Shown: piece after piece, positions 1 to 31,347 of the stretch
Position numbering within the stretch: the stretch's first letter is position 1
How the letters are laid out: each line of letters starts with the position of its first letter
IMG/VR virus record: IMGVR_UViG_3300042546_000893
Span: 1-64,000 of that record
Source of the DNA: a virus
Direction: 5' to 3' (one strand)
Length of the DNA: 64,000 nt
Position numbers and translations under genes: made by a program
The notes under the pieces: generated by a model
What the model was told of the DNA's origin: nothing
The model's database searches: none
The model's input: only the letters and a program-made list of their open reading frames with translations

Positions 1-761
1 ACGAGTTCCCGTCAGAACGGATATTGAGAATTGCACAACGGACAAATGCGGCAATGTCTCAAGGTTATGAGATTCCACTTATGTCCGATCATAGCAAGCA
101 ATTGATCGGGGCGGACGGTGAACTCAAGAAACTTGGGATTTTTGTTAGTCCTTTCGAGTGTCGGGTTATCCGTCAAGAGGATTTACCCAACCCAAAAATG
201 CAACACTTAATCGGAAAATTAGGTGCATTTTCCAGGGTTAATATTCTTAATAAGGTTAACGAAGTCCGATCAAAACTAATTAATCTTTTAAGTCCGGGCG
301 TTGATCTAAAACTTGAAAGGTTAGCAGAAGTATCCGCCGTTGCTTTTCCTGCTATTCACGGCCCCGCGCTTTTCGCTGCGTCATCTACTGTTCAAGACTT
401 GAGTTTTGCTTCAGTCAAAGAGGAGCAGGGAACGTTTAAGCGACAAAGAGAGGACTTGCTAGAGGAGTTTGAAATCCTATTACAAACCATCCAACGGATT
501 CAAAAAGCCTCACCTGAACAATTGGTAGCGGTAACTCCTGAGCAATTGTTATCAACTGCGATTGACGAATTTACGGCAGAAATTAAGCAATATTTTGGGC
601 TTGATAATTTGAGTCAATCAATAAATCAAGAACCGGAATCGCCGTACAATTCAAGCCCTTATGCTAATGAATTAATTAAAGGGCAAGCCACTTATTCCCT
701 GGGTAACACTACTTCTAATTTTGGTGAGACGGGGTTAAGGCGACGGAGAAAGAACCGATAA
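1..761 (+). CDS. Partial phage head-region protein, C-terminal part (N-terminus outside window)
   Basis: The reading frame is open from the first bases, so this is the C-terminal part of a longer protein; about 250 residues are visible. I do not recognise a named family. It lies directly upstream of the head genes, so a portal or portal-associated protein is possible by position only. The middle (about residues 130-170) is rich in charged residues and likely helical or coiled. The C-terminus ends SNFGETG followed by LRRRRKNR. This A/S-x-F motif plus an arginine cluster recurs in the small paralogues that follow, which suggests a shared maturation or localisation signal (inference). Stop at 759-761. 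Confidence 0.5.
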   Translation, partial: EFPSERILRIAQRTNAAMSQGYEIPLMSDHSKQLIGADGELKKLGIFVSPFECRVIRQEDLPNPKMQHLIGKLGAFSRVNILNKVNEVRSKLINLLSPGVDLKLERLAEVSAVAFPAIHGPALFAASSTVQDLSFASVKEEQGTFKRQREDLLEEFEILLQTIQRIQKASPEQLVAVTPEQLLSTAIDEFTAEIKQYFGLDNLSQSINQEPESPYNSSPYANELIKGQATYSLGNTTSNFGETGLRRRRKNR

Positions 762-799: not shown

Positions 800-1204
800 A
801 TGAGTTATTACCAATACGAACCGCCTGTAGCTATGTTTTCTATGGCAGAAGTTGATAAATATAATAATTATCAAAACGGTGCGGGTATTGCTGTTTTTGC
901 AAAAGATCCGTTTGGGCCAGGGCCGGGATGGAGAGCTAAAGAAGCAGTTAAAGGCTTCCCTCGTACTGTTGGTCGAGCCGCAGGAAAAGGGATGGGTGTT
1001 GCAGGAAAAGGTGTGCAATCGGCTGGCAATGCTGCGGGTACGGGCGCGAGAAAGTTAGGTATTTTGATGAGAAAGAATCCGACACTAGCTGGTGCAGGTA
1101 TCTTGGGTGCTGCTGCGATTGGTGCTGGGGCTGGTGGGGTAATGTTTATGCGTCGCCGTCGTAGCAAAACCGGAAAAATGATTGTTGAACAAGTGAGACG
1201 CTAA
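800..1204 (+). CDS. Array paralogue 1: glycine-zipper protein with RRRR-GK-VEQVRR tail
   Basis: First member of the nine-gene tandem array, 134 residues. The ATG is preceded by a good ribosome binding site (AAGGAG, 789-794). It lacks the MIIVRR start of most later members; its N-terminus (PPVAMFSMAEVDKY) matches that of the third member at 1492. A Gly/Ala-rich helix with GxxxG spacing (about residues 92-117) looks like a glycine-zipper membrane segment and is followed directly by RRRRSKTGK and VEQVRR. The stop overlaps the next start as TAATG, so translation is probably coupled. The family is unknown to me. A membrane-active or internal virion protein is a guess from the hydrophobic segment and from the position next to head genes. 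Confidence 0.75.
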   Translation: MSYYQYEPPVAMFSMAEVDKYNNYQNGAGIAVFAKDPFGPGPGWRAKEAVKGFPRTVGRAAGKGMGVAGKGVQSAGNAAGTGARKLGILMRKNPTLAGAGILGAAAIGAGAGGVMFMRRRRSKTGKMIVEQVRR

Positions 1205-1464
1205 TGATTATTGTCAGAAGGGTTAGGCACAAAGAATCCATTGCCAGTTTCTCTGGTCGTTATTGGGATTGGGATAAAGATGTTTGGGTAGAAGACCCGA
1301 AATACTCGCAAACAAATCCCAAAACAGTACCTAAATCTGGATCAAACTCAAAAGCGGTATTAGCAGGTCTAGCTGCTGCGGGTTTAGTAGGTGCAGGAGC
1401 TTACTTTATTGGGAGACGAAAATCATCTAAAGGTAAACAAATTATTGAGAGGGTTAGACGCTAA
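1204..1464 (+). CDS. Array paralogue 2: MIIVRR glycine-zipper protein
   Basis: 86 residues. It starts MIIVRRVR, has the A-x-F motif (IASFSG, residues 12-17), a short acidic/aromatic variable part, a hydrophobic Gly/Ala segment (about residues 50-69, AGLAAAGLVGAGAYF) and the conserved basic tail GRRKSSKGKQIIERVRR. The start overlaps the previous stop (TAATG). This is one of the shortest members and shows the minimal architecture: basic N-terminus, A-x-F, linker, glycine zipper, basic tail. Function unknown. Confidence 0.75.
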   Translation: MIIVRRVRHKESIASFSGRYWDWDKDVWVEDPKYSQTNPKTVPKSGSNSKAVLAGLAAAGLVGAGAYFIGRRKSSKGKQIIERVRR

Positions 1465-1491
1465 TGCAAAAGACAAAAGTAGAGGTACGCC

Positions 1492-1953
1492 GTGCCAATA
1501 TTCTCTCAAATTGAAGTTAATAAATATCAGAAATATGCCAATTTTGGGGTAAAAACAGAAGTTGTTGATAGCGACCCTTGGGGTGGTGGATATCCTAAAA
1601 AAGCAAAGGGCGCTGATATTTTTGACAGAGTTGGAAATAGAGTTGCGGATTGGGCTGAAGCTCCTCATCAAAATGCGGTTAAGAAAGTGAATGACGCACT
1701 TAGGGAACAGCTTAAACAAAACTCTCGCGCAACCATTCATCCGGCTGACGCAAAAAAACTGACTGAACTTTATAATCGAGCGGAATCTTTTAGGAGACAC
1801 TCTCGCTCGGTTGGAAAACTAGCTGTTGGCGGTGCTGCTGGATTGGGTCTACTTGCTGCGGGTGCGGCTGTCGCTGGGGGTGCAACGTTCATGCGTCGTC
1901 GTCGAACTAAAAAAGGCAAGATTGTTGTTGAACAAGTTAGGAGAAAACAATGA
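1492..1953 (+). CDS. Array paralogue 3: glycine-zipper protein, GTG start
   Basis: 153 residues. I accept GTG at 1492 because an AGAGG ribosome site lies seven bases upstream. An ATG at 1464, in another frame and overlapping the previous stop, gives only a 16-residue peptide (starting MQKTKVEVRR) before a stop. That suggests the ancestral MIIVRR-type start was lost by a frameshift and replaced by GTG. The N-terminus (PIFSQIEVNKYQKYANFG) is close to that of paralogue 1. A hydrophobic Gly/Ala segment lies at about residues 110-132, followed by MRRRRTKKGK and VVEQVRRKQ. It overlaps the next gene (ATGA). Confidence 0.7.
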   Translation: MPIFSQIEVNKYQKYANFGVKTEVVDSDPWGGGYPKKAKGADIFDRVGNRVADWAEAPHQNAVKKVNDALREQLKQNSRATIHPADAKKLTELYNRAESFRRHSRSVGKLAVGGAAGLGLLAAGAAVAGGATFMRRRRTKKGKIVVEQVRRKQ

Positions 1954-2477
1954 TCATTGTTCGTAGGACTAGACCCGCCAAATCCGCGCTGTTTGCTACT
2001 TATGCACTTCCAGAAGGGCGTAGGAGTAAGGGTGATGACAGGAAACAAAGGAGGGCTACGAAAACATACGCAAGGCGTGGTTATGAACGGGGTTGGCAAT
2101 CTTTGGATAGAGACTTATGGACAGGGAACCCGTCGAGAGTTATCCGTGTAGGAGGGGAGTCTGCAACTCCAACACCAAAATCTTATACCGAAAACTTAAC
2201 CCCTCGTCAAAAAGAGCTAACACAAGAAGCTGAAAGACTGCGCCAGAAATTAAATGATTCTTTCAAGGAAACACAAGAAAGGGTAAATCAAAAAGTTCAT
2301 GTAGAACCGCCTAAGTTTAACCTCACGGAAAAAGATGTACCTAAAAAAATACCAACAAAGCTATTACTAGCTGGTTTGGGTGTTGCTGGGTTGGTCGGTG
2401 CGGGTGCGTTCTTCACCCGAAGGCGTAGGTCTAAAAATGGAAAAATAGTGGTCGAACAAGTTAGGAGAAAAGCATGA
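1950..2477 (+). CDS. Array paralogue 4: MIIVRR glycine-zipper protein (longest member)
   Basis: 175 residues, the longest member. It starts MIIVRRTRP with an ALFATY motif near residue 14, then a charged middle with a probable coiled coil (about residues 85-125), a Gly/Ala hydrophobic segment (about 138-154, AGLGVAGLVGAGAFF) and the tail TRRRRSKNGKIVVEQVRRK. It overlaps both neighbours by four bases (ATGA). The ribosome site of the next gene is embedded in the codons of the tail (AGGAGA for RR), so the conserved C-terminus also serves translation coupling. Confidence 0.75.
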   Translation: MIIVRRTRPAKSALFATYALPEGRRSKGDDRKQRRATKTYARRGYERGWQSLDRDLWTGNPSRVIRVGGESATPTPKSYTENLTPRQKELTQEAERLRQKLNDSFKETQERVNQKVHVEPPKFNLTEKDVPKKIPTKLLLAGLGVAGLVGAGAFFTRRRRSKNGKIVVEQVRRKA

Positions 2478-2833
2478 TTATTGTAAGACGAAGGGTAAGC
2501 AATGAAGCAAACTTTGGACTCGTTGATCTAATTAAAGAGCCTTTTCGTAAGTACGGGCGATATCTTGCTGAAAAGGCAAAGGATAGAGCAGGTGCAGCCA
2601 TGCAAGAAGTTGTCAAGAATCCGAGTGCTGCTAACACTAAAAATGCTGCCAACTTAAACGCTGCCGCTAGTTGGGCAAAACAGAACCCAGGAAAGTTAGG
2701 TGCTTACAGGGTTGCCCCATTAGCTGCTGCTTTTATTGGAGGTGGCATGATTGCAGCCGGATCAAAAAGTTTCACCCGCCGTCGTCGTACCAAAAACGGA
2801 AAAATCGTTGTTGAGCAAGTAAATAGAAAATGA
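2474..2833 (+). CDS. Array paralogue 5: MIIVRR glycine-zipper protein
   Basis: 119 residues. It starts MIIVRRRVSNEANFGLVD, with the A-x-F motif at residues 12-14. The middle is Ala/Asn-rich and helical. The hydrophobic segment PLAAAFIGGGMIAAGSKSF is followed by TRRRRTKNGKIVVEQVNRK. It has ATGA-type overlaps with both neighbours. Function unknown; same architecture as the other members. Confidence 0.75.
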   Translation: MIIVRRRVSNEANFGLVDLIKEPFRKYGRYLAEKAKDRAGAAMQEVVKNPSAANTKNAANLNAAASWAKQNPGKLGAYRVAPLAAAFIGGGMIAAGSKSFTRRRRTKNGKIVVEQVNRK

Positions 2834-3075
2834 TAATTGTTAGGAGGTTTGTTAAGTCTAAATCATCTGCTAATTTTGCCTATGCTCCTGATTTCAAAAA
2901 TATGTATTGGGATGAGGCTGAGGAGGCTAGGGCTAAAGCAAATAAGTCTAAAATAGATCCTAGATTATTGTTAGCAGGATTGGGTGTAGCTGGTGCGGTT
3001 GGTGCGGGTGCTTACTTTATCCGTAGGCGTAGATCCAAAAACGGTAAACAGATTGTCGAGAGGGTTAAACGATGA
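2830..3075 (+). CDS. Array paralogue 6: MIIVRR glycine-zipper protein (shortest intact member)
   Basis: 81 residues, the shortest intact member. It starts MIIVRRFVKSKSSANFAYAP, followed by a short acidic helix (about residues 29-42), the glycine-zipper segment (LLLAGLGVAGAVGAGAYFI) and the tail RRRRSKNGKQIVERVKR. It overlaps both neighbours by four bases. The almost complete lack of a variable middle shows that the two ends and the hydrophobic segment are the conserved unit. Confidence 0.75.
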   Translation: MIIVRRFVKSKSSANFAYAPDFKNMYWDEAEEARAKANKSKIDPRLLLAGLGVAGAVGAGAYFIRRRRSKNGKQIVERVKR

Positions 3076-3452
3076 TAATTATTAGAAGGGGTGCTAATCG
3101 AAATCAATATACAAATCATTTAACGGCTCAATTCGGATTTTATGATTGGCTTGGAAGAAAAGGAGGTGATGTTCTGGAATGGCAAATTAACAACTTTCAA
3201 AAAAGAAACCCGCAATATTACAATAACCCCGATTTCAAAAATGAGACAGATGAGTATATTAATCGAGTCAACAGATTCAGAGCCGATCCCCAAGAGAACC
3301 GTGCGTTTGGCAAGCGTATAGCAGGAATCTACGGGAAAATGGCTTTAGGAATTGCAGCTACTGGTGCTGTTGTCGGTGCTGGTATGTACTTTACTAGAAA
3401 ACGAAAAACCAAAAACGGTAAAGTAGTTGTTGAGAGGGTGAAAAAACGATGA
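3072..3452 (+). CDS. Array paralogue 7: MIIIRR glycine-zipper protein
   Basis: 126 residues. It starts MIIIRRGAN and carries AQFGFYDWLG near residue 23. The middle is polar and charged with several aromatic residues. The hydrophobic segment (MALGIAATGAVVGAGMYF) is followed by TRKRKTKNGKVVVERVKKR, where lysine partly replaces arginine in the tail. It overlaps both neighbours by four bases. Confidence 0.75.
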   Translation: MIIIRRGANRNQYTNHLTAQFGFYDWLGRKGGDVLEWQINNFQKRNPQYYNNPDFKNETDEYINRVNRFRADPQENRAFGKRIAGIYGKMALGIAATGAVVGAGMYFTRKRKTKNGKVVVERVKKR

Positions 3453-3739
3453 TAATTATAAGAAGAATAAGATCCCCTTCTTTAGCTCAATTTGGTTTTA
3501 ATCCGTTTGGTCGAATAGAACGGGTAAATAAAGGGGCAGAACGTCAAAGAATAACCTTGCAAAAGGCTTTAGATTCTGCAAAATCTGAGGGCAAAAATCT
3601 TCGAGATCCCAAGGTTTTAAGACAGGTTATGCTCCCTGTTGCCCAAGCCAATAAAGGTCGAACTGGCGGATCTGCTTTCACTCGAAGGCGGAAAACCAAA
3701 AAGGGCAAAATAATCATAGAACGGGTAAACAGAAAATGA
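3449..3739 (+). CDS. Array paralogue 8: MIIIRR protein lacking the hydrophobic segment
   Basis: 96 residues. It starts MIIIRRIRSPSLAQFGFNPFGR and ends TRRRKTKKGKIIIERVNRK, so both conserved ends are present. The glycine-zipper segment of the other members is missing: the stretch before the tail is polar (VAQANKGRTGGSAF). This member is therefore probably soluble, which argues that the shared ends do not exist only to serve a membrane segment. It overlaps both neighbours by four bases. Confidence 0.72.
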   Translation: MIIIRRIRSPSLAQFGFNPFGRIERVNKGAERQRITLQKALDSAKSEGKNLRDPKVLRQVMLPVAQANKGRTGGSAFTRRRKTKKGKIIIERVNRK

Positions 3740-4013
3740 TTATTATTAGGAAGGTTAAACATCGAAATCAATTAGCTTCTTTCAATGCCTTACTATATGG
3801 TACGGCTGCAATTGGAGGTGTGCTTTATATGGTCGTAGTCAACTCAGGCAAAACAATAGAGAATACCTTGAAAAACGCCCAAAAGTTAAGCAAGGACTTC
3901 TCATCTTGACAAGACCTGAAGCTGCTATCGGTATCGGCATAGGAAAAACGTTTTCCCGTCGTTGCCGTACCAAAAATGGAAAAATCGTTGTAGAACAAGT
4001 TAGGAGGAAATAA
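3736..4013 (+). pseudogene. Array paralogue 9: frameshifted copy
   Basis: ATG at 3736 overlaps the previous stop and encodes MIIIRKVKHRNQLASFNALL and a hydrophobic segment, but this frame ends at TGA 3907-3909 after 57 residues. The conserved tail (FSRRCRTKNGK, then VVEQVRRK) is encoded in a different frame and ends at TAA 4011-4013. One indel near 3900 would join the two parts. Either the copy is decayed, or the short product is made alone. The tail keeps its AGGAGG, which serves as the ribosome site of the scaffold-like gene at 4015 and may explain why the end is preserved. Confidence 0.65.
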
Positions 4014-4014
4014 A

Positions 4015-5007
4015 GTGGATTCACTTAGTCAAATTCAAGCAATCTTAGAGTCAACAACTTTCGAGGAAGTTCACGATTCAGCAGAAACATTTTCGGCATT
4101 TCTTGAATTAGCTCAATCTGCCCTTGATCAAGAGGATAGGGAAGTTTTGGGCGAAGAAGAAATGGATGATGTAATCGCTGAAGGGATTGAAGATTTTGCT
4201 TCTACTCTTTATCAAATTTTTGGAATTGACGTAGAAGAATCTCGAATGGAAGATGAAGGCGAGATGGAAGATGAAGATGAGATGGAAGAATACTCCCAAA
4301 ACATGGGATATGTTGCTTCTTTTTCTCAGGGATTTGGTCAAACTTTAGCGGGTTTGATTGAGCAACGTTTCAACTCAATTGATGATGGTGTTGCTGTTGT
4401 CAGTGAGATCACCGGATTAGACGGGCGAGATATTTCTAGCCTGTTTGATGGGACGCTGGCAATCGAACCCGAAACCGCCGCCGAATTAGCAGACGCTTTT
4501 CAGTTAAACGGTCAAGATTATAACGATTTCGTTAATCTGGCTGCCAATGCTTTTACTGAGTTAGGGGGATCTCCCAATGATTCTTATTCCCTCAGTGAAG
4601 GCATTCATGCTGAACCCGTTGTCACCATGAATGCTGACATCGGACTCCGTGCCGAATTTGAAGCCCTCAAGGAACGGCAAGCCATTGGAGAAACCCTCCG
4701 AGCTATCGAACGGCAATGTGATCAGATGATTGCCGCTGGGATTTTAACAACCCATGAGCGCCGACTGCTGATTGGAGAATTTGAAACGGGTCAAGATCGG
4801 ACGGCTCAATTTTCCTCGGCTTGTGAAGGGTTAAGCGTCCCACCGGGTCAACAGTTAGATCGTCTGCAATATTACCTTTATATTGCCAACGCTCGCGGCC
4901 CTATCGCTCAATTTGGACAAATGGCTAACGACCCGATTGACACAGACTTCTCCCATGAAGATGTGCAGTCCATTCAATCATTCCGCACCCGCAATGGATA
5001 CGTTTAG
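4015..5007 (+). CDS. Acidic scaffold-like head protein
   Basis: 330 residues. GTG start at 4015, with AGGAGG at 4002-4007. The N-terminal 100 residues are very acidic (runs of E, D and M near residues 78-95). The C-terminal third is helical and polar. It lies just before the decoration and major capsid genes, the usual place of scaffold or protease/scaffold genes. No clear catalytic triad of a known prohead protease is visible, so scaffold is the safer call (inference from position and composition). It contains A-x-F motifs at VASFSQG, TAQFSSA and IAQFGQM, the same motif found near the start of the array proteins. These may be processing sites. Confidence 0.5.
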   Translation: MDSLSQIQAILESTTFEEVHDSAETFSAFLELAQSALDQEDREVLGEEEMDDVIAEGIEDFASTLYQIFGIDVEESRMEDEGEMEDEDEMEEYSQNMGYVASFSQGFGQTLAGLIEQRFNSIDDGVAVVSEITGLDGRDISSLFDGTLAIEPETAAELADAFQLNGQDYNDFVNLAANAFTELGGSPNDSYSLSEGIHAEPVVTMNADIGLRAEFEALKERQAIGETLRAIERQCDQMIAAGILTTHERRLLIGEFETGQDRTAQFSSACEGLSVPPGQQLDRLQYYLYIANARGPIAQFGQMANDPIDTDFSHEDVQSIQSFRTRNGYV

Positions 5008-5016
5008 GAGTAACAA

Positions 5017-5928
5017 ATGAAAGTAACCCGTTTTTATTCAGACCCCCCAGTTATCGCGGTTAATACCAATACCGAAGCCGCGTTTTCTTGCTGCTTAGAG
5101 GAGTCGGACATCCCATCTATTGCAGGATCTAAATCCGTTCCTGCGGGTGTTTTTCTTGCTAAGAAATCTACAGGCGGTCATCGTCCTTTAGGTCGGGCTA
5201 AGATTCTCGCTCCCTATGTTTCCGGCGAAACTGTTGTAATTGTGGAATGCCCCCAGGTTTTCAAGATTGGAGATGTACTTCGCTACATTGCAGCACCAGG
5301 GGTTTCACGGTACACAGAAGAAACCGCTATTCGTGCAGCTACAGCCCCGCTATTTGGGACTGTGACGGGTATTGATTCTTTGACTCAAAGACAAGTTACA
5401 ACCGTTACCTTTGCTTCGGTTGCTGTTGGCAATATCTTTACCGTTTCCATCAATGACGCTCCGATTTCATTCGTTGCCACGGCTGCATCAAATCAGAACG
5501 TTGCCGATGGTCTAAAAGCGGCTATCACCAAAGCACAATCTGGGTCTTCTCCCTTAGAAGAAATCCGAGTAACAACTCCGGGCGGTGTTTTGACACTGAC
5601 TACAGACCAGGAAGGAATCATCTTTACCACGGCTGTAACGGTAGCTCAGGGCGTTGCTAACACTTTAGGGACTGCGGTTGCTGATGTGACCACTGCAATC
5701 GGAACCTTGACGATCACCCCTCAAGGTGGTAACGCCTCCCTAGCTATTGGAGCCAAGATCGGCACGATTGGGGATGTTGTTGTCGGAGTGTTGAATAGCA
5801 CTATCTCGCTCTATGACGGAGATCAGTTTATCGCTCCATACTCAGGTGGTGTCGTTTATATTAATGCGTTGCCATACATTGACGGTGACATCCAAAGCCA
5901 ACTGCCGAAACTAACTTTTATTCCTTAA
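5017..5928 (+). CDS. Head decoration-like protein
   Basis: 303 residues, ATG at 5017 with GGAGT upstream. The N-terminal part (VPAGVFLAKKSTGGHRPLGRAK, with the pattern of a gauge of start-up cost of decoration proteins: a P-A-G-x-x-L core then G-x-x-R-P) resembles lambda D-type decoration proteins encoded just before the capsid protein. An inserted Thr/Val/Ala-rich beta domain (about residues 110-230, with VSINDAPISFVATAA) resembles add-on domains common in phage tube and decoration proteins. The call rests on position and this weak similarity. Confidence 0.5.
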   Translation: MKVTRFYSDPPVIAVNTNTEAAFSCCLEESDIPSIAGSKSVPAGVFLAKKSTGGHRPLGRAKILAPYVSGETVVIVECPQVFKIGDVLRYIAAPGVSRYTEETAIRAATAPLFGTVTGIDSLTQRQVTTVTFASVAVGNIFTVSINDAPISFVATAASNQNVADGLKAAITKAQSGSSPLEEIRVTTPGGVLTLTTDQEGIIFTTAVTVAQGVANTLGTAVADVTTAIGTLTITPQGGNASLAIGAKIGTIGDVVVGVLNSTISLYDGDQFIAPYSGGVVYINALPYIDGDIQSQLPKLTFIP

Positions 5929-5944
5929 CGGAGGGACTTGATTA

Positions 5945-7072
5945 ATGTATATTGCAGATTTCTTAAATAACGTATCGGCTGCGCAGGTTCAACTCCTGTA
6001 TGAAGATACTTTTCAATTCTTGATTGACCCAGATAAAGAATCCCTCCTACAACGGATGGGCAAAAAACCCGACCCCGGCGTTCTGAGTCAATACAAACTG
6101 ATGGATGATTTTGTCACCCTTGAGTTTTCCGATGACCCTGATGTGTTGGCATATCTTGTTAAACAAAACCTAGCAATCGCTTCCGTGATTTCCGTTGATG
6201 GTGAGGTTGTCTCAACGGGTGCAGGAAGTCTAATTAAGTTTGATGGAGACTTCTTTAAGCTGGCGATCGCCCACAACTGGGATGAGAAAAAGCAGGAGCA
6301 AATGCTGAAGTTTAAACGGATGTTACCGGGCAATATGTCCCAGACATTCATTGATATGCTTTACGGCTCCGTCGCTAGTTTGCAGCCACGGGTGATCAAA
6401 CTAGCCAACGTCTTAACTTGGCAAGTTTTACAGTCGGGTCAAGTTAGTTATACCGACCCCCGATCCGGTGTAACGGCTAAATTGGCTTATACCACTACAG
6501 CCGATCAGTATCCTACAGCCTTATCTGGGACGGCTAAATGGGATGCTTACACTACAGCCACAGGGTTGCAGGATATTGAAGATCACTTACTCAACTTCTA
6601 CGACAAGAAAGGATATTACCCCGACAAGATTGTGATGTCTAATCGGTTGGCTATCCATTTAAGCCGTCAAGAATCAACCCGTAACCGAGCGTTATCTACT
6701 GGGATGTTGTCTAATGTTCCGGCTGCGGGTGTGGCTAGTGCCGTTTCCCCTGAGATTCTAATGCGGGTTGTCCCTCAACTGGCAATGTCCAAAACTCAAT
6801 TAGAGATTTACGATGCTCAGTATGAGATCGAAACCGCGCCGGGTCAAACGGTCAAAGGTCGTTACCTGAATGACAATGCCTACTGTTTCCTGACTGCTGG
6901 CATGGGCAAAAGATTATTCGGCCCCACGATTGAGAATGAAGGGAGATCGGGTTTATTTGTGAAGACTGAACAATTGCAAACATCCCCACCCCGTGACCGT
7001 TCCTACTGCGTTGGCAAAATGGTTCCTTTCTTCCCACAGCCTGACTTATTAGGAGGTCGGACAGTCGCATGA
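5945..7072 (+). CDS. Major capsid protein, lambda gpE type
   Basis: 375 residues, within the usual size for the Phage_cap_E family. The C-terminal pattern (NAYCFLTAGMGKRLFGPT, then GLFVKTEQLQTSPPRDRSY and VPFFPQPDLLGGRTV) is characteristic of this family. It assembles the icosahedral shell together with the decoration protein encoded just upstream. GGAGG lies 12 bases before the ATG. The 3' end overlaps the HhH gene by four bases. Confidence 0.85.
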   Translation: MYIADFLNNVSAAQVQLLYEDTFQFLIDPDKESLLQRMGKKPDPGVLSQYKLMDDFVTLEFSDDPDVLAYLVKQNLAIASVISVDGEVVSTGAGSLIKFDGDFFKLAIAHNWDEKKQEQMLKFKRMLPGNMSQTFIDMLYGSVASLQPRVIKLANVLTWQVLQSGQVSYTDPRSGVTAKLAYTTTADQYPTALSGTAKWDAYTTATGLQDIEDHLLNFYDKKGYYPDKIVMSNRLAIHLSRQESTRNRALSTGMLSNVPAAGVASAVSPEILMRVVPQLAMSKTQLEIYDAQYEIETAPGQTVKGRYLNDNAYCFLTAGMGKRLFGPTIENEGRSGLFVKTEQLQTSPPRDRSYCVGKMVPFFPQPDLLGGRTVA

Positions 7073-8519: not shown

Positions 8520-10616
8520 ATGATTGACTTTCCAACTTTGTTTCCGAGTCTTGTTAAATACATCCCGAACTGGATGGAAAAGTTCTATCCTCGCATAGCA
8601 CAATTCGCACGGGGTGAGGGATATCCCTGTGGCAATAAAGGGGTTTTTATCCCGCGTCGTAATAAGTGTTGGACGCATCCCAAAACGGGTAATAGACTCA
8701 AGCAACCTCTGACTTATCAAAAGTATCAAGAGGCTAAAGAAAAGAGTCAGAAAAGCCGTACAGAAGCGGGTAGAACGGCTTTACAAAACCGTGAGCAAGG
8801 TTTTAAAGATAAGGCACGGGAGAAGGCTAAGGGGTGGCAGAATAAAACACCCGATTCAGGCGTAAGCGAGAGAGCGATCGCAGATATAGGAAAGGTTAAA
8901 TCTGGACAGATATTGCTTAACGAAAAAGAGAGATACAGATTACAACATGACAGGGGGATGTATCTATTAAACGATCCAAAACTGTCAGCTAGACAGGGCG
9001 GAACATCAAAAAAACTAACCGAAAAAGAAGCTACGGATTTTCTGGCGGAACAGTACGAAAAAGGGGAAACCAAATACACGCCTAATAGAGAATACCTTGG
9101 CGGTGTTGGGCATAAGTTGTTTATAGATTCAAACACCCCAGAAGGAAAGGCTTTATTAGAGGCTGAGGAATTAGTTAAAAAAACTAAAAAAACTAGCTCA
9201 AATTATCGTGTTGCTGTAGATTTTAAAAATGTTGCTACAGTTGACTATATTGCAAAACGTTCAGCTAATTCGCCAACTAAAGAACAACAGGAATATAACA
9301 ATAAACAACCCGATAAAATTGAATTAGAAAAAGGTATGGGATTATCTGAAGGATGGAGGTCTGAGAATGCTAAAAGGCGTTACTCTGGCAAGTCTGAGGA
9401 TATAACCGCTCACAATGATGTTACTGGTATTCCCTGGAAAGTTACATCATCTAATGGCAGGGAAGATGTCATCGTGGGTGCAAAAGTGTCAGATAGTTAT
9501 GATGGAGAAAAAAGACAACTCACGCTGCACAAATCCGATGGCACTATGTCGTTTAGTCCTTTTGCTAAAAATGATAAAGAAAAAGAAAATAGAGCAAAAA
9601 GGTTAGTTAAAGAAATCACTCAGGGCAAATCCCAAAACGTTAACATTGACGATATCAATTCAATGATTGATAGTGGAAAGCTACCCAAACCATCCCTAAA
9701 TTCAACAGGGGTTAAGGGTGCGGGGGGTAAATCGGTTGATCAACAATATAAGGATATTATTGCTAAGTCGAAAGATCCAAAGGGAACAGAGGAAGAAGTA
9801 TCTATAGCATTAATGCGGGGGCTTCCTGATTTTCACAGAGATAATTATAACGAATATTCGACTGCAATAAAAAATAATACTGTTCCAAAAGGGTACGAAA
9901 GTCATTATCAATCGCAAGTCGATAGATTTAAGCCTGTTGTTGATAATGAAGACTTTATAAATGAGAGACGAAAAAAAGCAATAAAAGGGGATTATGAAAC
10001 AGAAGGAGAGGCGAGGGTTTATGTTCTTAATAAGATGAAAGAAAAAGGCTATAAAGAGCATGAATATTATGATAGCCCTGATTACGAAAAGGATTACGAT
10101 AAATTAAAAGGCGTGATGAAAACGAAGGATGTTCCGCCGCCGTTGTCTGGAAGTGTACCAAGCAAGGATTTAAGAAAAACATTAAATCCTGGGGATAAAC
10201 TCTTTGTTAAGTCTTACGTTTCAGAAAGATTGAGTAATCCGTCTGATTATAAAATTGCGGATGGAGGGGAAGTTTTAAAAGTTAATATTAAAAATGCAAA
10301 AGTTAGAAATAGAGGAACCTCTTTAAACGGGAAGCCTTACGATGTTGAAGGTGTGGCTACTCTTGATGAGATTTCCCACATTATCCGAGATGGTAAACGT
10401 TACAAAGTAGATGATTCTGATAGTTCCCCTAATGACTTAGGAGTACAAGAGAAGGCAACTACCAAGAGACGCACTAAGAAAAAAGACTTTAATTCTAATC
10501 TTAAACTCGCTCAATTTGCAAAACCAGGATGCTGTTGTGATGCCTCCAAACCTTTAAGACGCCGGAAAACAAAGCAAACCCCTAGACTGAAAAGAAGGGG
10601 GACTCGATATGCTTGA
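8520..10616 (+). CDS. Large basic polyvalent-type protein of unknown function, late operon
   Basis: 698 residues, lysine-rich and polar. Near the N-terminus: IAQFARGEGYPCGNKG, then R and K followed by C-W-T-H-P-K-T-G. At the C-terminus: KLAQFAKPGCCC and a basic RRRKTK tail. Residues about 560-650 (DKLFVKSYVSERLS, GGEVLKVNI, then TLDEISHIIRDGKRYKV) faintly recall ADP-ribosyltransferase modules of phage head proteins, but no clear E-x-E motif is visible, so I do not assign it. Such long proteins encoded among virion genes are often packaged and injected. AQF motifs and the arginine cluster link it to the array proteins. Confidence 0.55.
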   Translation: MIDFPTLFPSLVKYIPNWMEKFYPRIAQFARGEGYPCGNKGVFIPRRNKCWTHPKTGNRLKQPLTYQKYQEAKEKSQKSRTEAGRTALQNREQGFKDKAREKAKGWQNKTPDSGVSERAIADIGKVKSGQILLNEKERYRLQHDRGMYLLNDPKLSARQGGTSKKLTEKEATDFLAEQYEKGETKYTPNREYLGGVGHKLFIDSNTPEGKALLEAEELVKKTKKTSSNYRVAVDFKNVATVDYIAKRSANSPTKEQQEYNNKQPDKIELEKGMGLSEGWRSENAKRRYSGKSEDITAHNDVTGIPWKVTSSNGREDVIVGAKVSDSYDGEKRQLTLHKSDGTMSFSPFAKNDKEKENRAKRLVKEITQGKSQNVNIDDINSMIDSGKLPKPSLNSTGVKGAGGKSVDQQYKDIIAKSKDPKGTEEEVSIALMRGLPDFHRDNYNEYSTAIKNNTVPKGYESHYQSQVDRFKPVVDNEDFINERRKKAIKGDYETEGEARVYVLNKMKEKGYKEHEYYDSPDYEKDYDKLKGVMKTKDVPPPLSGSVPSKDLRKTLNPGDKLFVKSYVSERLSNPSDYKIADGGEVLKVNIKNAKVRNRGTSLNGKPYDVEGVATLDEISHIIRDGKRYKVDDSDSSPNDLGVQEKATTKRRTKKKDFNSNLKLAQFAKPGCCCDASKPLRRRKTKQTPRLKRRGTRYA

Positions 10617-26916: not shown

Positions 26917-29900
26917 TTAACTCCCTGCTCTCAACTTTCCTAATTCTTCCCTCTGATTATTTAACATCCCAACAACCTTAAATAAATCTTGATTCTTGCG
27001 GGTGATGCTACCCTCCAAAGCATTAAGTCTATTTTGGCGTTTAATGCCCGATGCCGACCCATCTAACGGCTGCTCTTTGAGTGCGGTTATTTCCCGTCGC
27101 AGTGTTGCCATTTCAGATTGAATACCCGTTAACTGTTTCTGGGTATTTACTATCTGACCTTTAAGGATTTGGATTTGCTCATTCTGTAATGGCGGTAATC
27201 TCAAGTCTCTAACATCTTGAATAACCTCCCCTAACTGCTGTTGTTTAATCTGTTTTTCTAGTTGTAACTTACTCAGTTGAGCCTCTAACTTTTTAGTTCC
27301 TTTCTTGGCAATACTAAGCTGTTGAATTTGTTGTTGAATTTCAGATATTTTAGGCTCTAATTCAGTCAAGGCTTGATTAAGAATATTCCGATCTCTAATC
27401 ATTGCCGAGGCTTTATCAGCTTGATAAGTTAGCGGTTCTATCTTGATTTCTCTCATGTTCAGAGATTGTTTTAACTTATTCTCAATCTCATCTAATTGTT
27501 TAAATAGTTCCCCCCTCTCGATAGCTTTTCCTTTCACATCAAAGAATACGGGTTTACCAGCATCCTGTCTGACCTTCTCCCATATTTGTAGGGTGTTGTC
27601 TGCGTTATCTCTAATTAGATTTGAGCTATCAAGATTGTATCTATCAAGTTGTTCCAATAGAATATTTTGCTCATTTAATAATTTCTTCTGAGCATCATTT
27701 AAGGATCTAATTCCATTCCCTGTTACCTCTCCCTGTTCCTTGAGTACAGTATATTTACGTTGCCAGTCTTGATATTTGCCTACGGTTTTCCGTAGTTGAC
27801 CTTGTACATCATCGGGCTTGATTGATTGTCTAGCCTGTAAGTCTGAAGCCTTTTTACCCTCTAAAGATTTCCAGAGTTTATCAACTCGCTCATAACTTGA
27901 CCCCTGCCAGTTGTCAGATGTTGATGATTTAATTTGGTTCTGCCAGTACACGGCTTGATCTTCTGCCCATTTTAAAAACTCGCCTTCCTCAATTAATCCA
28001 TTTTCAGTAAATACTTTAAACTGGGTATCTTTTTTGAGTGTTCTAATACTGGACTGGACAATACTGTACTGCCTTAAAGTTTCGTCAGCTAACTGTCTAA
28101 TGGCTTCATAACCCACTTTTTTACCAGTAAGCGGTAAAAAAGTCAAGTCTTCAGGTGAAAGCCCGTTAGCATCAAGCCACCGCCGAACCTTGAGAGCTTT
28201 TCCCGTGGCATCAACACCATCATCAATCTTTTGACCGATATCAATTAAAAACCCTATATTCCAATCCTGACCTATGGCTTCCAACTTTTTAACAGCATCC
28301 TCAATTTGATTGATGCGAGACTCAACCATTGGGGATAGATTCTTTTCCCATGATGGAGTCTGTTCATCCCCAAACCGTTGTTTTTCGTATTGCTGATAGG
28401 TTTTATTTTGTGACTTTAAAGACTCATCAAGGTTAACCCGACTAGCACCAGCTAACGCTTTTAACCGTTTAGTTTCCTCTGCAATCTCACGGGATATTTT
28501 GCGCAATTCGACCGCCGCGTTATACGTCCCTATGTCAGAGTCGGGGATTTGGGTTTTGGTTATGGGAAGTTTAGAGGTATCAGCTAGAATACCATCAATT
28601 TCTTTCTGCAATTGTTCAAGTTTTTTAGTCTGTATAGCGATATCAGAAATAGTGGACTTGGCATTATCTAATCCAGGTCTAAACCTACTCTCTAATTCCT
28701 TTTTGAACTTAGGGACTTGAGCTTTAATATCCATAGCATCCTGAGTCAACTTGTCTAACGGTTGTTGTCTTTCTATCTGACTAAACGGCTCGTAGGTTTG
28801 CTCGTAGTTTTTAGTTTTCTTAACTCTATTTTCCCAATCTAATATCTGAGATTCAAGTTCTTTAGCTTGTTTTTCTAGTTGCGCTCCGGTCTTTAGATAA
28901 CCCATTCTCCCTAAGATTGATTCAGTTTGATTGGTTGTAGCTGTGAGGGTTTGATCGGTTCTTTTCAATAGTCTAACAGAACTATCAATCTCGGCCTTAA
29001 CCCTTTTTAGTTCGGCGCGAAGTGATGTCAATTCATTTTGAATATCACGCCCAAAAAAGTTCTCAGGGTAAAGAGGATCTAATAGGTTTTGATAGTGGGA
29101 TTGGAGTTCAGTTAATTTAGATTGTAAACCCTCTAGGTTTGTTTTTTCAATCAGATTAGACACGGGTTCTATAATTAATTTAGCACGGTTATTTGCTTGT
29201 TCTAGCCCCGCTATTTTCTTGTTAGGAGGGATGAAACCTTTAGACATTTGGCTGTCTATCTCGTTAGATATTTGAGCCTTTAAGCTATTGGTAGCATCGG
29301 ACAGACTAGATCCTTCATTCCCTAGATTCTCAACAGCTTGGTTTCGTAGTTTGGCTGCGGGTGTGAGATTGGGGATATCTAATTGATTAAGTGCCAGATT
29401 AGCTTTTTCAAGTTGCAATCCGATGGCGTTGGCTTTTTTTTGGGCTTGTTCTATTTTTGTTTGAATCCGAGCCTGTCTAACTTCTCTAATTCTAATTTCT
29501 TCAGGTGAGACGAACTCCTTGGGATTCCGTTTGTTCATGCGACGAAGACGGACATTAAATCTGCTCTCATCGGATCTAATTTTAGCTAACTCAATTCCTA
29601 GATCCTTGATTTCTTGTAAGGCTTCGCGTCGTTGTTGTAGCCCGATTTCCCTCTGTTTGATAATTTTACCAACTGCAATCTCTGGAGTGTCTAAAGTCAC
29701 ATCATCGGGAATCATTGGGACGTAATCATCCAATCCCACAACCTGACGTTTTTCTTGTGCTTCGATTGATTTAATTTTATCTATAGCTCTCTGTATCCGG
29801 TCATCAGAAATACCACGCTTTTTGAGTCTACGTTTTAAATCACTCCATGACTTAGAAGGTTTATCTTTTAATTCGTCAAAAATTGCCTTGGATTCGGAAC

Positions 29901-31347
29901 GGGAAAATCCCAAATTCTTTAACCACAATTCCGAAGGACTGGTTAGTTTTTCTAATTCAATCCTGAGTTTATCTTTATCAGCTAAACCCTGCAATGTTTT
30001 AAAGGCTTTACTTTTGCGAGATATCCCCTTGACATCCAATAAATCATCAATAGAACTAACTTTATTCTCTTGTAAATAATTGATTAAATCATCTAATTGT
30101 TTTTTAGGTAAAAATTCTTTTAATCCCTCTCTAATTTCTTCAGGCGTGGCGCTGTTTAACTCAACTCCATTTAAAAATAATCGGGGTTGAATCTCAATCA
30201 CACCTTGACCCGGCAATGATTCAGTCTGATTCTTGCGACGTTGACGGATCTGTTCTGCCGTCTGCACCTCTCCCGTCGCTTTGGCTATCCGGTGAAGTTG
30301 AGAGGCAAGGGCAACATCTACAAGTCCCCGTTCAACAGCCTCCCTGACTGGAGATGGGATCGAAATTCCTGGTGAAGCGACACCCGACCCCGGAACCCGT
30401 GCCTTTTTCTGTGACAATAGAATCGCTGCTAAGATACCCGCAGCTAACCATTTGGGCGGTGCATTAAATAACTTTCTTTTTTTAGATGATTGGCCGTCCT
30501 TGTCTAGCTCATCTTGATTAGAGGGATCTGCCAAACGGGGAGATAGTACACAGCGACACATAACGTGCATCGGGGGTGTATTAGCTGAAACAGTCTCTAT
30601 ATCATTAAGATCAATAGTCATCCCGTGGCGGTCTTCGCACACCTGACAACGGCGATCATCCATGATTGACAGGAAAACAACATGAGACACTAAACCCGAA
30701 TCCTTGTAAGTCTGCAACCTTCCGGCGTTATAAGCAAAAGTCAGTTCAGTGCGGGCTATCTTTTCAGCGCGATTCTTGAAACCCTTATCACCTAACTCTG
30801 AATTGATCCGCTTGAGAAGTTCTGATCTGTTTATCGGTTCCCCTGTTTCGGATTGGGGTTGGATTGCTGCAAATAGATGATTCTTAATTTTCCCCCATTG
30901 AGTTGAGGAAATATCGGATGCTAGGGTTTTTGAACGATTAGCGATCGCAGTCTGAGCAGGGACATTCTCTATAGATGCCAATTCCGTATCTAGTAGATCC
31001 TCATCAAAATTAGCCGTTCCCTTTTTCTGTTGAGACTTAATTTCATTGTTTCCATGCTTCCGCCCGATGTTCCAACCCCCTAACCACATTCCATAAATTG
31101 ATTTAGTCAACTCAGGAATTAAGACGGCTTGATAGTTTTCAATTGCCTTTGAGTCCTTGGTTCTAATCGCTCCGTCTAAATCCTTTAATGCTTTAGAAAC
31201 CACGCGACTAAAGGCATCGGTTAAAGTATTAACCCCACCACTCTCTAATCTATTCAGATTAATTTTTATCGACTTTGGCTTAACGTAGTCAGGTGTTTTA
31301 GCTCGGAATATTGCGGAACTATTTGGAGAGAAAACGGAGTCAAACAT
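26917..31347 (-). CDS. MuF-type minor head protein with very long coiled-coil extension
   Basis: 1476 residues; typical MuF proteins are much shorter. The MuF core is at residues 197-270 (IARTEL, DDRRCQVCEDRHG, PPMHVMCRC). A short hydrophobic segment is at 300-312. Residues 396-443 (VELNSATPEEI, then LLDVKGIS) look like a divergent helix-hairpin-helix domain, and a second such segment follows at about 470-520. From about 560 to the end it is predicted coiled coil, Gln/Lys/Glu-rich. MuF proteins enter the head with the portal and often carry injected cargo domains. It is encoded downstream of TerL on the minus strand; no portal gene lies between them. Confidence 0.75.
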   Translation of the reverse strand: MFDSVFSPNSSAIFRAKTPDYVKPKSIKINLNRLESGGVNTLTDAFSRVVSKALKDLDGAIRTKDSKAIENYQAVLIPELTKSIYGMWLGGWNIGRKHGNNEIKSQQKKGTANFDEDLLDTELASIENVPAQTAIANRSKTLASDISSTQWGKIKNHLFAAIQPQSETGEPINRSELLKRINSELGDKGFKNRAEKIARTELTFAYNAGRLQTYKDSGLVSHVVFLSIMDDRRCQVCEDRHGMTIDLNDIETVSANTPPMHVMCRCVLSPRLADPSNQDELDKDGQSSKKRKLFNAPPKWLAAGILAAILLSQKKARVPGSGVASPGISIPSPVREAVERGLVDVALASQLHRIAKATGEVQTAEQIRQRRKNQTESLPGQGVIEIQPRLFLNGVELNSATPEEIREGLKEFLPKKQLDDLINYLQENKVSSIDDLLDVKGISRKSKAFKTLQGLADKDKLRIELEKLTSPSELWLKNLGFSRSESKAIFDELKDKPSKSWSDLKRRLKKRGISDDRIQRAIDKIKSIEAQEKRQVVGLDDYVPMIPDDVTLDTPEIAVGKIIKQREIGLQQRREALQEIKDLGIELAKIRSDESRFNVRLRRMNKRNPKEFVSPEEIRIREVRQARIQTKIEQAQKKANAIGLQLEKANLALNQLDIPNLTPAAKLRNQAVENLGNEGSSLSDATNSLKAQISNEIDSQMSKGFIPPNKKIAGLEQANNRAKLIIEPVSNLIEKTNLEGLQSKLTELQSHYQNLLDPLYPENFFGRDIQNELTSLRAELKRVKAEIDSSVRLLKRTDQTLTATTNQTESILGRMGYLKTGAQLEKQAKELESQILDWENRVKKTKNYEQTYEPFSQIERQQPLDKLTQDAMDIKAQVPKFKKELESRFRPGLDNAKSTISDIAIQTKKLEQLQKEIDGILADTSKLPITKTQIPDSDIGTYNAAVELRKISREIAEETKRLKALAGASRVNLDESLKSQNKTYQQYEKQRFGDEQTPSWEKNLSPMVESRINQIEDAVKKLEAIGQDWNIGFLIDIGQKIDDGVDATGKALKVRRWLDANGLSPEDLTFLPLTGKKVGYEAIRQLADETLRQYSIVQSSIRTLKKDTQFKVFTENGLIEEGEFLKWAEDQAVYWQNQIKSSTSDNWQGSSYERVDKLWKSLEGKKASDLQARQSIKPDDVQGQLRKTVGKYQDWQRKYTVLKEQGEVTGNGIRSLNDAQKKLLNEQNILLEQLDRYNLDSSNLIRDNADNTLQIWEKVRQDAGKPVFFDVKGKAIERGELFKQLDEIENKLKQSLNMREIKIEPLTYQADKASAMIRDRNILNQALTELEPKISEIQQQIQQLSIAKKGTKKLEAQLSKLQLEKQIKQQQLGEVIQDVRDLRLPPLQNEQIQILKGQIVNTQKQLTGIQSEMATLRREITALKEQPLDGSASGIKRQNRLNALEGSITRKNQDLFKVVGMLNNQREELGKLRAGS

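Follow-up and report, generated by a model that had tools for sequence, protein, structure and literature searches.

A tandem array of short genes beside the head genes of a probable freshwater cyanophage encodes a predicted set of protease-processed capsid cargo proteins

Results

The viral DNA examined here is IMG/VR record IMGVR_UViG_3300042546_000893, which is 84,746 bases long and of which positions 1 to 64,000 (the window) were analyzed. At 800-4013 on the + strand it carries nine tandem paralogous genes, eight of them intact, located between the gene for the predicted head-maturation (prohead) protease and that for an acidic scaffold-like protein. We consider it fairly probable that this array encodes a set of prohead cargo proteins that are processed at an A-x-F motif closing a short N-terminal leader. 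The motif is most likely the cleavage site of the phage's own head-maturation protease. With less confidence, the products would probably also be injected into the host. The sequence directly reveals the array itself, the protease family, the enrichment of the motif, the turnover of gene cassettes, and the purifying selection acting on them; from these, packaging, cleavage, injection, and a target in the host are inferred.

The nine genes share both of their ends. In all of them A-x-F ends at residue 13 to 21 and a basic tail closes the protein, with an Arg/Lys cluster followed by GK-x(1-2)-(I/V)(I/V)E(Q/R)V, and seven of the nine start with MII(V/I)R(R/K). These features, and the mostly overlapping junctions, had been described in an earlier note made from the letters alone and are borne out here. 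One junction is a TAATG overlap, a 27-nucleotide gap precedes the third gene (C), and the rest are ATGA-type overlaps. Gene A0 (800..1204, 134 residues), which is the first array gene in every case, has the leader MSYYQYEPPVAMF (800-838) and a second AxF at residue 31. Gene B (1204..1464, 86 residues) has a leader ending in IASF (1204-1251) and a glycine-rich segment resembling a transmembrane (TM) helix before its tail. TM-like segments followed by the tail are also found in C (1492..1953, 153 residues, GTG start, leader ending in YANF at 1492-1545), D (1950..2477, 175 residues, leader MIIVRRTRPAKSALF at 1950-1994), F (2830..3075, 81 residues, leader ending in SANF at 2830-2877), and G (3072..3452, 126 residues, leader ending in TAQF at 3072-3134). 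The tail is likewise present in E (2474..2833, 119 residues, leader ending in EANF at 2474-2515) and in H (3449..3739, 96 residues, leader MIIIRRIRSPSLAQF at 3449-3493), the latter lacking a TM-like segment. The last gene, I (3736..4013, leader ending in LASF at 3736-3783), is frameshifted. The same broken reading occurs in relatives L005 and L013, and intact orthologues are found in L006, L017, and L022; since three contigs, counting the window, have the same break, it was probably passed down and did not arise as an error in the reads.

Close relatives of the window are found among environmental IMG/VR contigs. Together with the window they contain 14 array families distinguishable by signature, all of which have the leader and the tail, while their middle regions, when clustered automatically, fell into at least 11 separate groups, some families being merged. 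Given this recurrence across 14 families, the sequences indicate that the shared leader and tail are not due to chance. The leaders are 13 to 21 residues long and the products are basic (pI 10 to 12). Leaders end in A-x-F in 12 of the 14 families and in T-x-F in the other two; none ends in LxE or IxE. The earlier note stated that most of the proteins carry a glycine-zipper segment, and this needs correction: a TM-like glycine-rich segment lies directly before the tail in about 9 of the 14 families, and the tail is found in every one.

Searches against PHROGs returned no match for the array proteins at an E value of 0.01, including the ejection, holin, and spanin families. Across PHROG, Pfam, and NCBIfam no model explained them, in agreement with the earlier statement that no family fits, and only marginal anchor- or TM-type matches were obtained. 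One of these (Pfam Gram_pos_anchor) scored 21.6, just above its cutoff of 20. Such weak matches to anchor and sorting-signal models, together with the Arg cluster that comes after the TM-like segment in about nine families, are what would be expected if the products were membrane proteins acting outside the virion, in lysis, exclusion, or a sorted envelope, with the segment and the cluster forming a stop-transfer or sorting signal. We regard this as very unlikely. An N-terminal signal peptide is absent, the conserved tail extends about 14 residues beyond the Arg cluster, and 5 of the 14 families have the leader and the tail but no TM-like segment; because the tail is retained in these families, it would be a tag rather than a stop-transfer element. 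The array also lies inside the head-assembly block, and its leader motif is common to the scaffold and the protease. The lysis and sorting-signal readings were rejected on this evidence from signal peptide, tail, TM segment, and position. Proteins with C-terminal sorting signals (LPXTG, MYXO-CTERM, and similar) were rejected in particular because the array proteins have a charged leader and because the model matches were marginal or below cutoff.

The gene order around the array is protease, array, scaffold, head protein, and major capsid protein (MCP), in accordance with the position beside the head genes given in the earlier note. The record begins inside the protease gene, of which the 3' part is present (3..761, + strand); the protein is complete in relatives (296 residues, L034:7443-8333). 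The profile phrog_976, "head maturation protease," was hit by every one of the 13 protease homologues (best E value, 1.3e-5), and the truncated copy of the window on its own gave no match against PHROGs. The Pfam search of the protease returned no protease family. Its homologue in PA-SR01, ORF24, was named a Mu-like I protein by means of HHpred (PMC10286775). At the C terminus of the window protease, TSNF is followed by GETGLRRRRKNR, that is, an F and a basic tail. Downstream of the array, the scaffold-like protein (4015..5007, + strand, 330 residues) contains three copies of the motif (VASF/S, TAQF/S, and IAQF/G, the slash marking the predicted cut), and in its RTAQFS the A and the F are invariant down to 22 to 25% identity. 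The protease and MCP are distantly related to those of the Pseudanabaena phages Pam2 and PA-SR01.

The A-x-F motif also emerged from an unbiased scan of the protease-to-scaffold block, in which 1,200 residue-pair patterns (gaps 0 to 2) were evaluated for over-representation relative to composition. A-x-F ranked first in PA-SR01 (19 occurrences versus 5.8 expected), second in Pam2 (20 versus 7.1), and third in the window (19 versus 6.8), where it came after RR and IxxR, both of which stem from the leaders and tails. Applied to T4 gp67, gp68, gp21, and gp22, the same scan placed IxE first and LxE second, which is the known motif of T4 (PMC9026906), and A-x-F at rank 739. In PaV-LD, a Planktothrix phage with a different protease, it found no enrichment of A-x-F (rank 845). 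Counts of AxF per protein were not significant after allowing for protein number, whereas the block-level tests were.

The residues flanking the motif are also nonrandom. Compared with other AxF sites, they are biased at P2 (45/51 versus 34/111) and at P1' (37/51 versus 43/111); the protease would prefer N, Q, S, or E at P2 and A, G, S, or N at P1'. The extended pattern A[NQSELM]F[SGAN], whose residue sets were partly drawn from the same data so that P values are indicative, occurs 6 times in the scaffold, the protease, and a 698-residue protein, versus 0.31 expected, and 7 times in the rest of the proteome, versus 5.5 expected. This 698-residue protein (8520..10616, + strand) is a further predicted cargo, with an N-terminal RIAQF/A and a C-terminal LAQF/A followed by an Arg/Lys-rich tail. 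Its residues 245 to 640 are 49% identical to PaV-LD ORF061; since this region is shared and the N terminus of ORF061 differs, it may be an exchangeable large cargo domain.

A short motif repeated in scaffold and cargo could instead be a docking site for the scaffold or shell, with the proteins packaged whole, and the T-x-F found in two leaders would suit binding. This is improbable because the scan recovers the true cleavage motif of T4 in the equivalent genes, small residues are preferred at P1', and A-x-F precedes the basic C-terminal tail both in the Pam2 and PA-SR01 proteases and in the 698-residue protein. In relatives, moreover, homology frequently breaks off at the motif. The protease-to-scaffold genes of the Pam2 group encode multisite polyproteins, and pieces of these (QDPATIQRLIQ..., for example) turn up in different contexts, bounded by AxF. 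Within these proteins, 8 of 14 internal homology ends lie at most 12 residues from an AxF (2.3 expected), as do 8 of 24 starts (4.0 expected). Compared with L039:8051-9379, L056:9909-11609 has a whole glycine-zipper segment inserted between two A-x-F sites, at the place where Pam2_15 has a single one. In PA-SR01 the block is interrupted by an opposite-strand helicase gene (L061:13391-15187), which separates the scaffold from the cargo-like genes.

Cleavage at A-x-F could also serve the prohead core only, with the array products shaping the core, being chopped, and leaving the head, so that nothing is delivered. The core proteins gp22 and gp67 of T4 are cut to fragments (PMC9026906), and the homologues in the Pam2 group are cut-prone polyproteins adjoining the scaffold. 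In most array proteins, however, the canonical motif occurs once, close to the N terminus, as in the retained internal proteins of T4, and not at many internal sites. Variation from 3 to 11 cassettes between close relatives would also be unlikely for a core that determines head size. We therefore judge a purely structural role unlikely, albeit less so than docking.

The comparison of copy number among relatives, which the earlier note had proposed, gave this range of 3 to 11 cassettes per phage in a fixed order, each phage drawing its genes from the series A0-(J, M or N)-B-C-D-E-F/K-L-G-H-I. There are three genes in L020 (A0, H, and I), four in L017, nine in the window, and eleven in L022, where ten are recognized by signature and the eleventh is the end of A0. 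The J gene of L006 has an end that is nearer to B than to its L009 counterpart, and the end of C in L013 matches the D/E junction; both junctions fit a loss of cassettes through crossovers between the shared ends. Between the window and L034, synonymous divergence (dS) is 0.006 in the protease and 0.8 in A0; A0 was thus replaced even beside a nearly identical protease. The ratio of nonsynonymous to synonymous divergence (dN/dS) is about 0.2 to 0.45 among divergent alleles of A0, H, and I, which argues that these are maintained proteins, and 0.03 to 0.05 for the capsid protein in divergent pairs. In near-identical pairs dN/dS is near 1, from few changes. Since dN/dS stays below 0.5 in divergent alleles, positive selection as the driver of diversity was rejected for these alleles. 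These patterns indicate an evolution by purifying selection and recombination. The "rapidly diversifying" set of the earlier note thus holds for gene gain, gene loss, and allele replacement and not for positive selection.

Other genes of the region complete the head block. The protein encoded between scaffold and MCP (5017..5928, + strand) has a weak match to phrog_909, "major head protein," and the MCP itself (5945..7072, + strand) matches phrog_29 (E value, 3.6e-17). In L034, a 461-residue gene upstream of the protease, on the opposite strand, is read as a candidate portal from its position and sequence. Elsewhere in the window, a 1,476-residue Mu F-like protein (26917-31347, - strand), with a weak helix-hairpin-helix match, has A-x-F at residue 12 (SSAIF/R), and a 177-residue protein (52273-52806, - strand) with GANF/S near residue 31 is a possible additional substrate outside the head block.

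Discussion

The closest parallel to the array is found in the internal proteins (IPs) of phage T4. The T4 prohead protease cuts after (L/I)-x-E, and the IPs are basic, with leaders of 10 to 19 residues (PMC9026906). The three proteins, IPI, IPII, and IPIII, block host restriction enzymes of type IV (PMC12373910). Like the array products, these proteins and Alt, processed by gp21, have a short shared leader, in T4 a capsid-targeting sequence; it ends in the motif of the prohead protease, as the array leaders probably do. The IPs are small and basic with unrelated middles (PMC9026906, PMC12373910), and their set varies between related phages. The two systems differ in the motif, which is (L/I)-x-E in T4 and A-x-F in the array, and in the leader sequences, which are unrelated. 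The array, moreover, has up to 11 contiguous genes between protease and scaffold, an extra conserved C-terminal tail, glycine-zipper segments, and a polyprotein form in the Pam2 group. Most likely the array is the same kind of system as the T4 IPs, with a new cleavage code, a tail tag, and an array or polyprotein architecture. The earlier claim that no system of this form has been described was therefore too strong, although the literature searched, in which coverage of subscription journals was thin, contained no account of such an array.

In the giant Salmonella phage SPN3US, gp245 cuts after A-X-E, so that P3 is Ala, and favors Ser at P1' (PMC10052503). This system of gp245 substrates and E proteins resembles the array in the three-residue motif with Ala at P3, in the leaders of 20 and 24 residues on two substrates, and in the C-terminal propeptide of the protease (PMC10052503). 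It differs in having Glu rather than Phe at P1; no sequence relationship was detected, and no such gene array is described there. Pam2 and PA-SR01 are nearer, with a homologous protease (about 29 to 32% identity), scaffold (22 to 25%), and MCP (27%), the same motif, and glycine-zipper proteins between protease and scaffold. Their cargo-like proteins are nevertheless fused and multisite rather than single-leader genes and lack the RRRR-GK-VEQV tail. The genes between protease and scaffold in these phages are annotated only as hypothetical; Pam2_03 and Pam2_54 are annotated among the phage genes as "botulinum neurotoxin type B/A," probably spurious automatic names. In PaV-LD, the head-region protein ORF079 (L027:34305-36080) has ADP-ribosyltransferase-like domains (Pfam ART, 2.4e-5) reminiscent of T4 Alt, and neighboring PaV-LD proteins have in common an N-terminal domain that carries a CGNTSYNCGKACI-type motif.

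The distant relationship to Pam2, PA-SR01, and PaV-LD suggests that the host of this freshwater, long-tailed virus is probably a cyanobacterium. Scans of genome collections with the protease and the array confirmed no relative, and hence neither a prophage nor a host genome was found. A search of phages at the DNA level gave no match, and a scan of IMG/VR with the array alignment returned only the same clade.

The following model accommodates these observations. The leader of 13 to 21 residues would recruit each small basic protein to the scaffold core, and during maturation the head-maturation protease (gene 3-761) would cut after its A-x-F. The mature proteins, often with a glycine zipper, would be retained alongside the DNA inside the head and probably be ejected into the host, where the zipper segments suggest membrane association. 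The Arg-rich tail may be a second shared tag, for scaffold or DNA binding, and perhaps is trimmed too. Conserved ends would permit the gain, loss, and exchange of cassettes, so that each phage has its own set. The earlier reading, in which the capsid would carry the products and deliver them into the host, is thus partly supported: indirect evidence supports packaging well, because the array lies between head protease and scaffold, its leader ends in the presumed protease motif, and that motif recurs in the scaffold, the protease, and the relatives. Delivery, at the lower confidence given above, and membrane activity, the alternative that the earlier note had offered, are plausible.

Several points weigh against this interpretation. 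Cleavage at A-x-F is deduced from enrichment, and the motif counts are not fully independent because the leaders are paralogues of one another and Pam2 is closely related to PA-SR01. Two families have T-x-F leaders. The invariant F before the C-terminal Arg cluster has Y, T, or F at P2 and I, T, or M at P1'; it thus lacks the flanks of the N-terminal consensus, which makes removal of the tail at this predicted site doubtful. Taken singly, the protease sequences match phrog_976 weakly (1e-5), and the AlphaFold model of the protease was set aside (predicted local distance difference test score, 37). The virion proteins of PA-SR01 have been analyzed by sodium dodecyl sulfate-polyacrylamide gel electrophoresis only (PMC10286775).

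A broader and tentative reading is that the A-x-F leader and basic tail form a portable capsid-import code, serving a recombining array of injected, membrane-associated effectors that may also be deployed as a protease-cut polyprotein. If so, the head cargo of a phage would be readable from sequence once the protease motif has been inferred by pattern enrichment. The motif scan, having recovered the motif of T4, may also be of use for predicting which motif the protease of another uncharacterized phage cuts and which cargo that phage carries. Given that the three T4 counterparts block restriction, the 14 families are candidate injected anti-defense or membrane-active proteins of cyanophages. 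If the array is such a cargo set, the strategy of the T4 internal proteins would reach as far as freshwater cyanophages with long tails; Phe at P1 would be a new specificity for a prohead protease, and the swappable set of cargo would be unusually large.

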